The notes under the pieces were generated by a model, which saw only the letters and a program-made list of their open reading frames with translations, did not search any database and was not told the DNA's origin. The position numbers and the translations under genes are program-made. Of a DNA stretch of 64,000 bases, positions 15,331 to 46,404 are shown piece by piece; position 1 is the stretch's first letter, and each line of letters begins with the position of its first letter. This stretch comes from Synergistaceae bacterium (GTDB taxonomy: Bacteria; Synergistota; Synergistia; Synergistales; Aminobacteriaceae). The stretch spans positions 62,001-126,000 of the forward strand of contig JAHDKT010000022.1 of assembly GCA_018436725.1 (NCBI GenBank), in the 5' to 3' direction.

Positions 15331-15406
15331 TGGAGCCGGTGTGCGGACTTGAACCGCAGACCTGCGCATTACGAGTGCGCTGCTCTACCAACTGAGCTAC
15401 ACCGGC
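15331..15406 (-). tRNA. tRNA-Thr (anticodon CGT)
   Basis: A 76-base cloverleaf including encoded CCA. The acceptor stem GCCGGTG pairs with CACCGGC, the D-arm has AGCTCAGTTGGTAGAGC, and the anticodon loop is CTCGTAA. The T-arm contains GGTTCAAGTCC. Third of three tRNAs in one transcript. Confidence 0.95.
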
Positions 15407-15413
15407 GAAATAA

Positions 15414-15489
15414 TGGCGGTCCCAACGGGATTCGAACCCGTGTCACAGCCTTGAAAGGGCTGTGTCCTAGGCCACTGGACGATGGGACC
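15414..15489 (-). tRNA. tRNA-Glu (anticodon TTC)
   Basis: A 76-base cloverleaf including encoded CCA. The acceptor stem GGTCCCA pairs with TGGGACC with discriminator G, and the anticodon loop CTTTCAA sits on a CAGCC/GGCTG stem. It has the long GGCCTAGGAC D-loop typical of tRNA-Glu. Confidence 0.95.
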
Positions 15490-15506
15490 GCGTTCATGCT
15501 TGAAAG

Positions 15507-15582
15507 TGGTGAGCCGTGTGGGAGTCGAACCCACGACACCCGGATTAAAAGTCCGGTGCTCTGCCATCTGAGCTAACGGCTC
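15507..15582 (-). tRNA. tRNA-Lys (anticodon TTT)
   Basis: A 76-base cloverleaf including encoded CCA. The acceptor stem GAGCCGT pairs with ACGGCTC, and the anticodon loop CTTTTAA sits on a CCGGA/TCCGG stem. It is the first gene of the three-tRNA unit, 27 bases below the -10 box of a strong promoter. Confidence 0.95.
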
Positions 15583-41277: not shown

Positions 41278-44259
41278 TTATCGCTTGAGGTTGATCAGCT
41301 CTTCAAGCACCTGGTCGCTGGTGGTGATCATGCGCGCGTTCGCTTGGAAGCCTCTCTGGGAGGTGATCAGCTTGGTGAACTCCTCGGTGAGGTCGACGTT
41401 CGACATTTCAAGCGAGGAACCGACGATCGACCCCGCGCCGCCCTCCTGGGGCGAACCTATCTGCGCTATCCCCGAGTTGTTGCTTTGCGTAAAAGCCGAG
41501 TTGCCTATCTTCACAAGGCCGGCTGGGTTGGAGAAGAGCGCCAGCGCAACGCGGTACAGCGGGATGTTCTGTCCGTTGCTGTAGATACCGTTGACCGTTC
41601 CGTCCTTAGCCACAGCGAAGTCCGTCAGCACGCCCATCGAGTAACCGTCCTGGTAGTAGCCCTTCGTCGTGAACTCGGAACCGTACTGCGTTACTCCGTC
41701 GAGCAGCTCTTTCTGGAAACTCTGGCCGGAGAAATCGAGCTTGATTGTCGATTCGCGGGCACCGACCTCGTCGAACTGGACAGTGATCTCCGGAGTCGGA
41801 TTGTACATACCGGTGTCGCTTGTATCCAGTTTACCATCCGGGCCGAAGCGAAGCAGACCTGTATTTTCGGATAAAGACGCCTCGCCGTTGGGAAGCCACG
41901 CTCTCCAGCGCCAAACGCCGTTGTCCAGCTTCTCCCACGAGACTTCCAGGGTATACGGATTCCCGAGCGAGTCGTATACATCAACCTTCGCGTTGTGAAC
42001 GTTGGCGATCCGCTGGTTCACTGTCGCGAGCGCCTGTTCGTTGCCCTTGGTGACAGGGACGGAGAAGGTATTCGTGGTGGTAACAGCGGCTGTCGGGTCC
42101 CATATTTTCATAGTAAATGCACTGCTTCCGGCCTCGTCGTAGTCCACCACATAGCTGGTTCCGTTACTGTCTGTTACTGTTTGGAAGTTGACGTACTTCC
42201 CGACTTCGTATGTAAAGGTTTCAGCGGCAGTACCATTATTGAACGTCAAGATCCCCGTCGCAGGATCATACGAAATATGGGCGGCATTATACGTCTCGCC
42301 GCTGGGCAGAGTGAGCACAGGATCGCCCCCCACCGGCACCAGCTGAAGTCTTCCGGAGGCATCAAGACCGTTCATGCTGAAATTTACGGTCGCAGGAACT
42401 CCTGTACCGGAAAATGTCAGCGTCATGAAGTTATTCGCCGCTGTCCCTTCAGTGGGAGTCACCGCATAGTTAGTACCATTCACGATAACCTCGGAACTCG
42501 CCGGTACTATCCCCATGTACTTTCGGAAGTTATAGGTCTGGATTTCCAGAAAATCATCGTTACCCGCTACTCCGGGAGTTCTGTCTCCCAAGATTGTCAT
42601 CCTGTAATCTCCGCTTCCCAGCGAATCGAATTCCGTCCTCACCGAGCCTCCTCCCGCTGGAACCAGATTGCCGGCCAACGGGGATGCTGCGGCAACAGCC
42701 TCCGTTCCCATCTTAATCCGAGATCCTAGCGCATATGTCCATGCATTGGGAGCAGGAGTGGTTAAATCGTTGAGGACAAGGCTACCATCCGCATCGGTAG
42801 CTCCGGGAGTATACACTCCCTGATACGTTTTTCCATCCAGGACGAAGGTTGAAGCAGGCACCAACACTACCGATCCCGTTCCATTCAGTCCGGCGTAGTT
42901 CAACTGGAGAGTTCCAGTGTTATTCGGGTCGTTGCGGTCGACGAACTTGAGCGTGGCGTAACCGCTGTTCGGGTTACCTTCGGTGATCGTGACGTCGTAC
43001 GCTTTTCCGCCGATTCCGACGTTCTGCACGATCGTTGGCTGGATACCCACTCTGTCTGTAACTTGCGAAGAATCGACGATCTCCACGGTGCTGGTAAGCT
43101 GGACTCCCTGGTTCCCTGTAGCGTTGCTGATGGTAACGAAGGCGCCGCCGGCGAACCCTCCAAGGCGGGTGATTCCGTCGACCGCTGTATCGGGAATGGC
43201 GAACGTCCCGTCGTCGTTCATCTGCACCGTGTATTCGAACATCGCCATGTCGCCCTTGTAGTCCTCGCCCCAGAGACGAAGTGTTCTATACCCTTCCTGC
43301 CCGGCGGTGGTGATATCCGTAAATTCCGCTAGGTACGAAAAGCTATTCGTTCCGTCCTTGATGGTGAGCGTCTGATAGTCCATTTGTTTCTCGAGGTTGA
43401 GAGTCCACTCGTCGGGGTTCGTGGGGTCTATGTTGGTCAGCGTGAGGACGCCCGTAGCGGAGTCGAAGGCTACTGTGTATACGCTTCCGTCGATTTCAAA
43501 GGGTGTTTCGGATGCAAGCATCGGGCGCCCGTTGGACTGATCCACTCCCGTCAGTTTCAGGGTCAACGTCTGTCCTCCGATATTCATCGTCATGAAGGCG
43601 TCGGCGCTCATCCCTTCCTGCATGGTCACATCGTACTTCTGATTGTTCAGAGTCGCCGCGGTGGAGAAGTTGTTCGCCGTAAGCCCCATCGGAAGATAGG
43701 TCGCGGCCCGGCCGTCGAGGTTGCAGCGATATCCGACCACCGTGGTCTGGCGGGCTTCCATCTTCTGGCCGGTGGGTATATTGATGTCGGTCAGCGAAGA
43801 ACCTTGGTTGAACTGTAGAGGATCGATCGGATCGCGGACTATCTGGTAGCCCTGGAGCTTGTACCCCGTTCCGGCCTGCGCGAGGTTGCTGTCTCCATCC
43901 AGGGTAAAATTCCCGGCTCTTGTAAAGAGACGGTTGTTCCCGTCCATGACGACGAAATAGCCGTCGCCCTGGATCGCGAAGTCGGTGCGGCTTCCTGTAT
44001 ACTGTGTAGTCCCCTGAGTATGCAGAACCTCTATTGCGGAGACTTGCATGCCGAGTCCGACCTGCTTCGCGTTGACGCCTCCGCGTTGATCGTTCGGCGC
44101 CATCGTACCGCTGGTGTTCTGATAGAGCAGATCCTGGAAGGTAATGTTGGATCGTTTATACCCTGCTGTATTGACGTTGGCTATGTTGTTGCCGACAACG
44201 TCGAGAGAAACCTGATGTCCTCTCACGCCCGACACGCCCGACATAAGGGATCGTAGCAT
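41278..44259 (-). CDS. flgE: Giant flagellar hook protein FlgE (first of two)
   Basis: A 993-residue hook protein, more than twice the usual length. Normal D0/D1 parts lie at both ends: residues 1-180 (MLRSLMSGVSGVRGHQVSLD, NNIANVNTAGYKRSN, MEARQTTVVGYRCNLD) and 755-993 (KVDVYDSLGNPYTLEVSWE to the SQRGFQANARMITTSDQVLE C-terminal coiled coil). The region 182-752 is an insertion in the outer-domain position, made of three diverged repeats. The ATG at 44259 has AAGGAGG upstream. It shares about the whole conserved part with the next gene, flgE2. Surface-exposed extra domains are expected to decorate the hook; no key D0/D1 element is missing. Confidence 0.93.
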   Translation of the reverse strand: MLRSLMSGVSGVRGHQVSLDVVGNNIANVNTAGYKRSNITFQDLLYQNTSGTMAPNDQRGGVNAKQVGLGMQVSAIEVLHTQGTTQYTGSRTDFAIQGDGYFVVMDGNNRLFTRAGNFTLDGDSNLAQAGTGYKLQGYQIVRDPIDPLQFNQGSSLTDINIPTGQKMEARQTTVVGYRCNLDGRAATYLPMGLTANNFSTAATLNNQKYDVTMQEGMSADAFMTMNIGGQTLTLKLTGVDQSNGRPMLASETPFEIDGSVYTVAFDSATGVLTLTNIDPTNPDEWTLNLEKQMDYQTLTIKDGTNSFSYLAEFTDITTAGQEGYRTLRLWGEDYKGDMAMFEYTVQMNDDGTFAIPDTAVDGITRLGGFAGGAFVTISNATGNQGVQLTSTVEIVDSSQVTDRVGIQPTIVQNVGIGGKAYDVTITEGNPNSGYATLKFVDRNDPNNTGTLQLNYAGLNGTGSVVLVPASTFVLDGKTYQGVYTPGATDADGSLVLNDLTTPAPNAWTYALGSRIKMGTEAVAAASPLAGNLVPAGGGSVRTEFDSLGSGDYRMTILGDRTPGVAGNDDFLEIQTYNFRKYMGIVPASSEVIVNGTNYAVTPTEGTAANNFMTLTFSGTGVPATVNFSMNGLDASGRLQLVPVGGDPVLTLPSGETYNAAHISYDPATGILTFNNGTAAETFTYEVGKYVNFQTVTDSNGTSYVVDYDEAGSSAFTMKIWDPTAAVTTTNTFSVPVTKGNEQALATVNQRIANVHNAKVDVYDSLGNPYTLEVSWEKLDNGVWRWRAWLPNGEASLSENTGLLRFGPDGKLDTSDTGMYNPTPEITVQFDEVGARESTIKLDFSGQSFQKELLDGVTQYGSEFTTKGYYQDGYSMGVLTDFAVAKDGTVNGIYSNGQNIPLYRVALALFSNPAGLVKIGNSAFTQSNNSGIAQIGSPQEGGAGSIVGSSLEMSNVDLTEEFTKLITSQRGFQANARMITTSDQVLEELINLKR
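42003..43650 (-). repeat. Three diverged tandem repeats in giant FlgE
   Basis: Protein-level repeats inside the insertion. Copy 1 (about 43010-43650) begins YDVTMQEG and has IDGSVYTV then DSATGVLTLTN and EWTLNL. Copy 2 (about 42485-43020) begins YDVTITEG with LDGKTYQG, ADGSLVLND, AWTYAL. Copy 3 (about 42003-42490) begins YAVTPTEG with SGETYNA, DPATGILTFNN, FTYEV. Each first half is followed by a related second half such as YRTLRLWGEDYKG, YRMTILGDRTPG and FTMKIWDPTAAV. Length is about 160-215 residues per copy. Confidence 0.75.
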
Positions 44260-44351
44260 AGCGTATTCCTCCTTAAGCTTTCGTCGAAGATGGCGCAATC
44301 CCTTGCGCGGATCCTTCTGCCCGTCCGTCCGTGGGGGCGTTTGAGTCTTTT
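44260..44351 (-). promoter_or_regulatory. 5' leader of giant flgE with hairpins and ANGGA motifs
   Basis: The leader aligns with the flgE2 leader over about 90 bases. Transcript order: a GCCC/GGGC stem enclosing CCACGGACGGAC; then an outer GAAG(G)AU/AUCUUC helix carrying a GCGCAA/UUGCGC hairpin with GGGA loop; then the AAGGAGG ribosome site. It contains about five A-N-GGA motifs, including one in the ribosome site, the pattern bound by CsrA. Confidence 0.5.
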
Positions 44352-44458
44352 TATTCTTCGGCAGTTCCGCCGCCTTTCTGAAGCCTTTTGAAAGAGTTCG
44401 GGAAAAAAAGGAAAAGAGTACACGGAAATGCCGGAAAAAGCGCGAGAGCATCTATTTT

Positions 44459-44489
44459 AAAAAAGCCCGCGGAAAGGAAAACCGCGGGC
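44459..44489 (-). terminator. Intrinsic terminator between flgE2 and flgE1
   Basis: On the minus strand a perfect 8-bp stem GCCCGCGG/CCGCGGGC with a 9-base loop is followed by six T and then AAAAT. It starts 20 bases after the flgE2 stop. The 249-base spacer up to the flgE1 ATG holds this terminator and the flgE1 leader. I see no convincing promoter between them; a TAAAAT at 44454-44459 lacks a good -35 box. Confidence 0.88.
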
Positions 44490-44508
44490 GAAGGCGAACT
44501 TTTCTTTT

Positions 44509-45867
44509 TTACCGTTTGATGTTGATCTGCTCCTCCAGAACCTGGTCGCTCGTATTGATGACGCGCGCATTCGCCTGGAATCCTCTCTGGGCCAGGATAA
44601 GCTGCGTGAATTCTTCGGTGAGGTCGATATTCGACATCTCAAGAGCCCCCCCGATCAACGCTCCCGCGCCATCCTCCATCGGGACGCCGATCCTGGCCAA
44701 ACCGGAGTTGGAACTCTCCTTGAAGACGGTGTCTCCCACCTTGGTCAGACCGGATGGGTTGACGAACGTCGCCAACGACATTCGGTACATGGGAACGTTC
44801 TGTCCGTTGTCGTAGGTCGCCATGACCGTCCCGTTGTTGGTGACCATGAAGCTCTCCATGACGCCCATAGCGCATCCATCCTGATAGTACCCTTTCGTGG
44901 TGAAGGGAGAAGCGTACTGTGTCACGCCTTCGATCGGCGGCTTGTCGAAGGACTCCCCGGCGAAATCGAGCGTGATATCCGAAGATTCCGCGCCGACGGA
45001 GGTAAAGTCGATGGTGATCCCGGGGCTGACATCCGCTCCGGCGGCAGGTTTCCCATCGGGACCGAAGGTGAGCACTCCCCTCTGGACGAACTGCGGCGAC
45101 CCCGCATCGGGCAGGTAGGCCACCCAGCTCCATTCATTATCCTCCTGTTGACCAGTCCTTACCCACAGCACTTCGAGCGTATGCCCTTTTCCAAGCGAGT
45201 CGAAAATCTCTATCTGCGACTTGTGCGAACTCGCAGTAGGGGGAGTCTCCATCGGAGGATCGGCGTACGGATCCCACGCAGCGGGATCCCATGTCGCAGG
45301 ATCGACCACCGGCGCCTTGCTGTCGAGATTGCATCGGAAGCCGACCTTCGTCGTGGTCCGCGCCTCCATCTTCGAACCGATGGGGATGCTGATGTCGCTC
45401 AGCGATGAGCTTCGATTGAACTTGGTGGGATCGTTGGGGTCGGCGACCATCTGGTACCCCTGCACCCTGTAGCCCGTTCCCGATTGCACGATCTTGTTCT
45501 CCGAGTCGAGGGTGAAGTTGCCGCCTCTGGTGAAGAGACGGTTGTTTCCGTCCGTCACGACGTAGTACCCCTCTCCCTGTATGGCGACATTCGTATCGCC
45601 GCCTACGTAATTGATATTCCCCTGGGTGTGAATCGTTTCGATCGCGGCGACACGCACTCCAAGTCCAACCTGAAGGGAATTGACTCCTCCTCTTCCTTCC
45701 ACGGGAGGCATCGCGCCTCGGTGGGTCTGGTAGAGCAAATCCTGAAAGGTGACGTTCGATTTCTTAAACCCCACTGTATTGATGTTGGCGATGTTATTTC
45801 CGACGACGTCGAGAAAGGTCTGATGCCCCCTCGCGCCCGACACGCCCGACATAAGGGATCGAAGCAT
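44509..45867 (-). CDS. flgE: Flagellar hook protein FlgE (second, normal length)
   Basis: A 452-residue hook protein of ordinary size. The N-terminal D0/D1 (MLRSLMSGVSGARGHQTFLD, NNIANINTVGFKKSN, then VAIQGEGYYVV) and C-terminal D0 (LDLTEEFTQLILAQRGFQANAR, DQVLEEQINIKR) are complete. A short linker (about 180-205: Pro/Asp-rich WDPAAWDPYADPP) stands where flgE1 has its insertion. I chose the ATG at 45867, 7 bases after GGAGG, over 45873. It follows flgD and its own leader, and is closed by a terminator. Confidence 0.93.
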   Translation of the reverse strand: MLRSLMSGVSGARGHQTFLDVVGNNIANINTVGFKKSNVTFQDLLYQTHRGAMPPVEGRGGVNSLQVGLGVRVAAIETIHTQGNINYVGGDTNVAIQGEGYYVVTDGNNRLFTRGGNFTLDSENKIVQSGTGYRVQGYQMVADPNDPTKFNRSSSLSDISIPIGSKMEARTTTKVGFRCNLDSKAPVVDPATWDPAAWDPYADPPMETPPTASSHKSQIEIFDSLGKGHTLEVLWVRTGQQEDNEWSWVAYLPDAGSPQFVQRGVLTFGPDGKPAAGADVSPGITIDFTSVGAESSDITLDFAGESFDKPPIEGVTQYASPFTTKGYYQDGCAMGVMESFMVTNNGTVMATYDNGQNVPMYRMSLATFVNPSGLTKVGDTVFKESSNSGLARIGVPMEDGAGALIGGALEMSNIDLTEEFTQLILAQRGFQANARVINTSDQVLEEQINIKR

Positions 45868-45958
45868 GCTCATTCCTCCTTGCTGTTTTCTCGAAGACGG
45901 TGCAGTCCGTTGCTCCGATCGCTTCAGGGGCGTCCATCCATGGAGCCGCTTTGTCTTT
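45868..45958 (-). promoter_or_regulatory. 5' leader of flgE2, homologous to the flgE1 leader
   Basis: Transcript order: GGC/GCC stem enclosing UCCAUGGAUGGAC; outer GAAG/CUUC helix with an inner GG(A)GCA/UGC(A)CC hairpin whose loop contains ACGGAC; then AAGGAGG. Four A-N-GGA motifs are present (two overlapping AUGGA, one ACGGA in a loop, one in the ribosome site). Stems are kept while bases differ from the flgE1 copy. Confidence 0.5.
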
Positions 45959-45975
45959 CCTGACTTCTCCGCTTT

Positions 45976-46392
45976 TTACGCCACTGAGACTACTTTTTCG
46001 AGGGGCACGTCTCCGTCCGTTGTATTCAGAATGATCTTCCCCTCTTCAAAACGAACGTAGCCAACAGTGGAGTACGCAGGAAGTCCCTCGTCGTCAGTGT
46101 ACTCGATCACCCTGCCGATGTAGCTCACAGCGGACGCCTTGTTCATGGCGGCCATCTGTTCGATCGTCTTGTTCATGTTGGTCATCTGCTCAAGGGTGCT
46201 GAACTGCGCCATCTGGGCTATGAAATCCTTGTCCTTCAACGGATCCAGAGGATCCTGATTGCTCAGCTGAGTGATCAGAATTTTCAGGAAGGCATCCTTT
46301 CCGAGGTCGTTGTTCGCCTTCTGTACGGCGTCTGTGACCGCAGTGCTGTTTCTATTCGAGGAGCTGCTGTTCGCTACGTTCTGTATCGCCAT
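45976..46392 (-). CDS. flgD: Flagellar hook capping protein FlgD
   Basis: A 138-residue hook cap/scaffold. The family core KDAFLKILITQLSNQDPLDPL followed by FIAQMAQFSTLEQM is present (about 32-70). The C-terminal part is short and lacks the full Ig/tudor domains, as in Firmicutes-type FlgD. ATG at 46392 has AGGAGG 8 bases upstream and was preferred to GTG 46401. It lies 12 bases after fliK. Confidence 0.92.
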   Translation of the reverse strand: MAIQNVANSSSSNRNSTAVTDAVQKANNDLGKDAFLKILITQLSNQDPLDPLKDKDFIAQMAQFSTLEQMTNMNKTIEQMAAMNKASAVSYIGRVIEYTDDEGLPAYSTVGYVRFEEGKIILNTTDGDVPLEKVVSVA

Positions 46393-46404
46393 TACGCCCA
46401 CCTC

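Follow-up and report, generated by a model that had tools for sequence, protein, structure and literature searches.

Flagellin is the textbook target of the FliW-CsrA system. In Bacillus, the hag leader carries a hairpin with an ANGGA loop together with a site in the ribosome-binding region, and flagellin is, to our knowledge, the sole flagellar target of CsrA in this organism. Published reports describe a Hag-FliW-CsrA switch in Bacillus subtilis (PMC6529632) and give the binding sites of CsrA and RsmE as ANGGA motifs in hairpin loops, with the hexaloop CANGGANG (PMC4894983, PMC6692469). In Campylobacter jejuni, the flaA leader contains two adjacent stem-loops with ANGGA hexaloops and compensatory changes, and co-immunoprecipitation with CsrA enriched the flgE mRNA 68.2-fold and 7.1-fold in two strains (PMC4894983).

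Here, we describe leaders with CsrA-type signals that precede two hook genes in a member of the Synergistota (G000). The window, i.e. the whole stretch of DNA that was analysed, comprises 64,000 nucleotides and contains, in minus-strand order, fliK (a name given by position alone), flgD, flgE_A, and flgE_B; three tRNA genes lie in a row at 15334-15582, also on the minus strand. The features relevant to the argument are the following:

45976-46401, minus strand: flgD, upstream of leader A (Pfam FlgD)
45868-45958, minus strand: leader RNA of flgE_A (leader A) with two ANGGAN hairpins and a ribosome site; covariance model match 45865-45959, 64.9 bits, E 2.6e-19 in the window; member of the training set
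45929-45947, minus strand: hairpin 1 of leader A, GGCTCCATGGATGGACGCC, loop AUGGAU (hairpin scan)
45898-45917, minus strand: hairpin 2 of leader A, CGGAGCAACGGACTGCACCG, loop ACGGAC (hairpin scan)
45874-45881, minus strand: ribosome site AAGGAGGA of flgE_A, the third GGA site (sequence)
44509-45867, minus strand: flgE_A, hook protein of 452 aa, proposed regulated gene (Pfam FlgE_D2, Flg_bbr_C, Flg_bb_rod)
44459-44489, minus strand: terminator-like hairpin between flgE_A and leader B; 8-bp GC stem, 9-nt loop, six T, fold of -18.1 kcal/mol
44260-44351, minus strand: leader RNA of flgE_B (leader B); covariance model match 44257-44350, 77.5 bits, E 1.8e-23 in the window; member of the training set
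44319-44338, minus strand: hairpin 1 of leader B, GCCCCCACGGACGGACGGGC, loop ACGGAC (hairpin scan)
44293-44308, minus strand: hairpin 2 of leader B, GCGCAAGGGATTGCGC, loop AGGGAU (sequence and hairpin scan)
44267-44274, minus strand: ribosome site AAGGAGGA of flgE_B, the third GGA site (sequence)
41278-44259, minus strand: flgE_B, long hook protein paralogue of 993 aa, proposed regulated gene (same Pfam domains as flgE_A)

Leader A fills the gap between flgD and the flgE_A start codon at 45867. Upstream of flgE_B, the frame is free of stops to 44451; despite this, we set the start codon at 44259 because of the leader homology and the ribosome site, and in this reading leader B would be untranslated. 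The two genes are separated by a strong terminator-like hairpin, which escaped the automatic scan because of its loop limit of 8, and flgE_B may therefore have its own promoter; the promoter and terminator scan of 44200-46100 returned no promoter-like site. Between the end of its D1 match at residue 168 and the start of its D2 match at residue 755, the flgE_B product has a long insert that is absent from flgE_A.

The preliminary description of this DNA had proposed that the two leaders align through about 90 bases, that their stems are preserved while bases change, and that ANGGA motifs occupy loops and the ribosome site. All three points are borne out. Upstream from the ribosome site, 59 of 88 aligned columns are identical over ~90 bases and, judged by this alignment, leaders A and B are homologous. 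Each hairpin pairs with different bases in the two copies: leader B has the stems GCCC-CC-ACGGAC-GG-ac-GGGC and GCGCA-AGGGAT-TGCGC, leader A has GGC-TCC-ATGGAT-GGA-c-GCC and GCA-ACGGAC-TGC, the latter within a longer stem. All four hairpins carry an ANGGAN hexaloop and AAGGAGGA recurs in both leaders. Hairpin 1 is closed by a C-G pair and hairpin 2 by A-U followed by C-G, so that the closing pair of hairpin 2 deviates from strict CANGGANG. Single-sequence folding of leader B forms both hairpins, with a tighter loop in hairpin 2, while folds of other leaders do not always recover them. Across both strands of the window, just 11 ANGGAN hexaloop hairpins have at least 6 pairs, and three of these lie in leaders A and B.

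Compared with the known systems, the hook leaders resemble CsrA/RsmE-type leaders in their ANGGAN hexaloops and in having at least two sites, one of which overlaps the ribosome site. Bacillus hag shares with this genome the proximity of csrA, fliW and flagellin, as well as an ANGGA hairpin combined with a site in the ribosome region; the present case differs in having the hook gene as its target and a leader of two hairpins plus the ribosome site. C. jejuni flaA offers the same two adjacent ANGGA hexaloop stem-loops, but its target is flagellin, the ribosome site is covered by the second loop, and its GGA motifs are spaced by 21 nt. In the hook leaders, the ribosome site is a third GGA downstream of two hexaloops spaced by ~23-31 nt. 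The transcript bound by CsrA in the C. jejuni co-immunoprecipitation is that of the hook gene, as proposed here; however, the enrichment lies in the reading frame, and the consulted part of that source gives no value for the 5' UTR and describes no leader structure.

Hairpins of this type recur before flgE in a large part of the phylum. We found flgE in 119 of 185 genomes at 142 places, and analysed 138 upstream regions from these 119 genomes, leaving out three places at contig edges (G070:C314, G002:C198, G143:C56) and one that was not fetched (G002:C4). At least one strict hairpin (ANGGAN hexaloop with at least 4 pairs) is present in 84 of the 138 leaders, compared to a mean of 3.27 and a maximum of 8 in 100 dinucleotide shuffles, and at least two are present in 22 (shuffle mean 0.03); at the same loci, 1.6% of 3257 control windows contain one. 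The strict definition was preferred because a relaxed one, while capturing 107 of 138 leaders, gave a shuffle mean of 23.9. A test blind to pairing took every ANGGAN between -105 and -28, which yielded 235 sites, spread over 123 of 138 leaders; at 41.7% of them, vs 1.3% of 1951 control sites, the first three pairs on the flanks were all Watson-Crick. The ANGGA motif itself is twofold enriched in flgE leaders (229 vs 113). In other phyla, the signature was found in 6 of 67 leaders vs 1.92 in shuffles, and we make no case for its occurrence outside the phylum, as the six cases have no common position or form.

A covariance model (R1) was built on 24 flgE leaders, selected from 27 with both hairpins, and run over the 185 whole genomes. 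It gave 44 matches at E ≤ 2.7e-4, every one of which ends on an flgE start codon; 20 of these lie outside the training set, with G048, G118, and G042 being near copies of training members. The first match not at flgE appears at E 3.5e-4. We inspected 15 weaker matches, with E values between 3.5e-4 and 0.0062. One of them, in G144, lies on the start of a flagellin gene, another, in G092, immediately upstream of a flagellin match, and a third, in G067, looks similar; the others, which fall within or ahead of short frames and unrelated genes, were treated as chance. In the window, R1 scores leaders A and B alone, with the next match at E 0.25. To judge by these matches, the two-hairpin unit is specific to flgE within the phylum. 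Searches of Rfam assigned the leaders to no family at gathering score and, at E up to 5, returned three unrelated matches far under their cut-offs.

The preliminary description had named covariation in relatives, and csrA-fliW in the genome, as checks on its hypothesis, and both were found. Without any structure being given, RNAalifold predicts exactly the two hexaloop hairpins from the 24-sequence alignment; it reports no covarying pair there, the inner pairs hardly varying, and the invariance of ANGGA in this alignment follows from the selection of the training set for both hairpins. Across 55 matches placed on the model, both partners change at 8 of 10 pairs (58 such cells vs 21 in shuffles) and the covariation score reaches 0.247 vs 0.094, with 0 of 500 shuffles as high, in an alignment that is fitted to the model and hence biased towards it. 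With the partner shifted by 1-3 columns, the score drops and does not exceed 0.10. Covariation is seen at outer pairs of the stems.

The csrA and fliW genes of G000 are adjacent and lie on another contig than the window; csrA was identified by PF02599 (E 5.4e-21). A flgL-type flagellin-family gene ends just before this pair and flagellin begins ~3 kb further on. The best solved relative of the CsrA protein, chain D of 5dmb, is a homologue of the carbon storage regulator, in what we take to be a FliW-CsrA complex. The protein retains L4, R6, R7, V40, V42, and R44, the first five of which are presumably RNA-binding residues. R44 is given as an RNA-binding residue, and V51 and N55, which are likewise retained, as needed for FliW binding in C. 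jejuni, in the literature (PMC7829508). Phylum-wide, csrA was detected in 116 and fliW in 115 of 185 genomes, with csrA being present in 103 of 119 genomes that carry flgE vs 13 of 66 that lack it. Flagellin leaders served as a positive control: of 30 loci, 26 were used, the remaining four having no start recognised by the search pattern, and an ANGGAN hairpin occurs in 16 of the 26 (shuffle mean 0.89). It typically lies 30-45 bases before the start and is followed by a ribosome site, in many cases ACAAGGAGG; in G000, it reads GCGGC-AAGGAT-GCCG. As side observations, four genomes (G014, G101, G109, G126) have two fliW copies each, one of which in G014 directly precedes a flagellin gene on a contig with no csrA match, and G007 (rated 98% complete) gave no match for csrA or fliW but carries flgE and several flagellins.

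Several observations run against a simple picture. An ANGGAN hexaloop hairpin is missing from 37 of 138 flgE leaders even at 3 pairs, and genus g15 has csrA, yet no strict hairpin. Strict hairpins occur in 69 of 103 csrA-positive and in 9 of 16 csrA-undetected flgE genomes; hairpin presence does not track csrA detection in these data. Missing csrA may in part be due to incomplete bins: flagellin-family matches are absent from three of these 16 genomes and single and weak in three more, and we therefore consider these six bins probably incomplete, an explanation that does not account for the other ten. In many genera of the same family, the hairpin found instead has a GGA loop that differs slightly and a GCGATAA/TTATCGC stem beside the ribosome site. 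In several genera (L015, L016, L021, L025, and others), this stem has the flgE ribosome site at its foot and GCGGA opposite, a second leader architecture that may represent another CsrA arrangement. For C. jejuni, it is reported that weaker flagellar targets are bound by CsrA in vitro, while their protein levels were not substantially changed in a csrA mutant (PMC4894983).

On the strength of the loop type, the match to the flagellin leader, and the presence of csrA and fliW, the CsrA-type control of hook synthesis put forward in the preliminary description stands in its outline, whereas binding and the direction of control are predicted from sequence. We regard binding of the leaders by CsrA as very likely, repression of flgE translation by CsrA as likely, and a link of FliW to the hook leaders, drawn by analogy, as somewhat favoured. 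Each leader would thus act as a CsrA landing platform controlling translation of the hook protein: one CsrA dimer would bind a hairpin and bridge to either the other hairpin or the ribosome site, thereby shutting ribosomes out. As in Bacillus and Campylobacter, FliW would keep CsrA inactive until unexported flagellin binds FliW, and the freed CsrA would repress flagellin and, here, the hook protein. Flagellin backing up in the cytoplasm could in this way throttle hook and filament subunits together. Taken as a whole, this scheme, in which CsrA represses hook translation and is set free through FliW and flagellin, appears probable to us.

The likeness of the two leaders might stem from gene duplication alone, with functionless hairpins. 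The genes flgE_A and flgE_B are paralogues that each make up a single group in genus g1, and duplication explains the alike leaders; however, the stems covary, single-copy flgE genes of other families have the hairpins as well while the leader around them has largely changed, and the phylum-wide data already contradict this account, which we consider scarcely credible. Use of the loops by another RNA-binding protein or a small RNA is also very improbable, as the loops with their closing pairs, the overlap with the ribosome site, and the flagellin leader of like build are all as expected for CsrA, and no Rfam family matches.

If CsrA is indeed the binder, the sign of its effect could differ. 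CsrA might activate hook expression, e.g. by shielding the mRNA against degradation or by melting a fold that inhibits it, and E. coli CsrA is reported to activate motility via flhDC mRNA (PMC11187230). With a GGA in the ribosome site, as in C. jejuni flaA, where CsrA is reported to repress (PMC4894983), we judge activation to be quite unlikely. Alternatively, the hook leaders could mainly soak up CsrA, freeing flagellin and other targets when hook mRNA is abundant. Two high-quality hexaloops and three GGA sites per leader, as well as two leader copies in this genus, would suit such a role, and the C. jejuni flaA and Salmonella fim leaders are reported to titrate CsrA (PMC4894983). The third GGA in the ribosome site makes repression of flgE itself the simpler reading, so that titration as the main function seems unlikely to us, though the two are compatible rather than mutually exclusive. 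A tentative and rather doubtful extension combines them: the FliW-CsrA circuit of the Synergistota would have two structural targets, with the hook mRNA being both repressed target and timer. Hook and flagellin leaders, sharing sites, would compete for CsrA: the hook mRNA would soak it up while the hook is being built and let it go when transcription of the hook genes declines, so that the output of hook and filament would be coupled translationally.

The two hairpins before both hook genes, and the similar leaders before hook genes elsewhere in the phylum, suggest that the known flagellin brake also controls the hook in these bacteria. The presence of fliW and csrA and the conserved FliW contact N55 are shared with the flagellin-FliW-CsrA switch; the leaders described here precede flgE, whereas flagellin leaders have their own hairpin. 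We therefore propose the hook leaders as an added branch of this switch, not as a canonical member. In the accessible parts of the literature, searches for CsrA or FliW with hook genes or Synergistetes turned up neither a comparable hook leader nor any work on CsrA in Synergistota. The hook leader would thus be a new form of CsrA-type leader, with the C. jejuni flgE co-immunoprecipitation as its nearest known relative. Its flagellin-leader signature is spread across much of the phylum and, if the reading is true, post-transcriptional control extends back from the filament to the hook. Given the absence of a matching family, the leader could join Rfam as one of its own.

The history of the two copies can be followed within the genus. 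A tree built from the first 189 residues places the flgE_A and the flgE_B copies of g1 in a single group each (100/99), and both therefore predate the species of the genus; the same tree gives no decision on whether they are sisters. The flgE_A leader of G001 has no strict hairpin, and one copy can therefore decay. Directly before hairpin 1, a CCGAAGAATAA-like stretch is common to most relatives in the genus.
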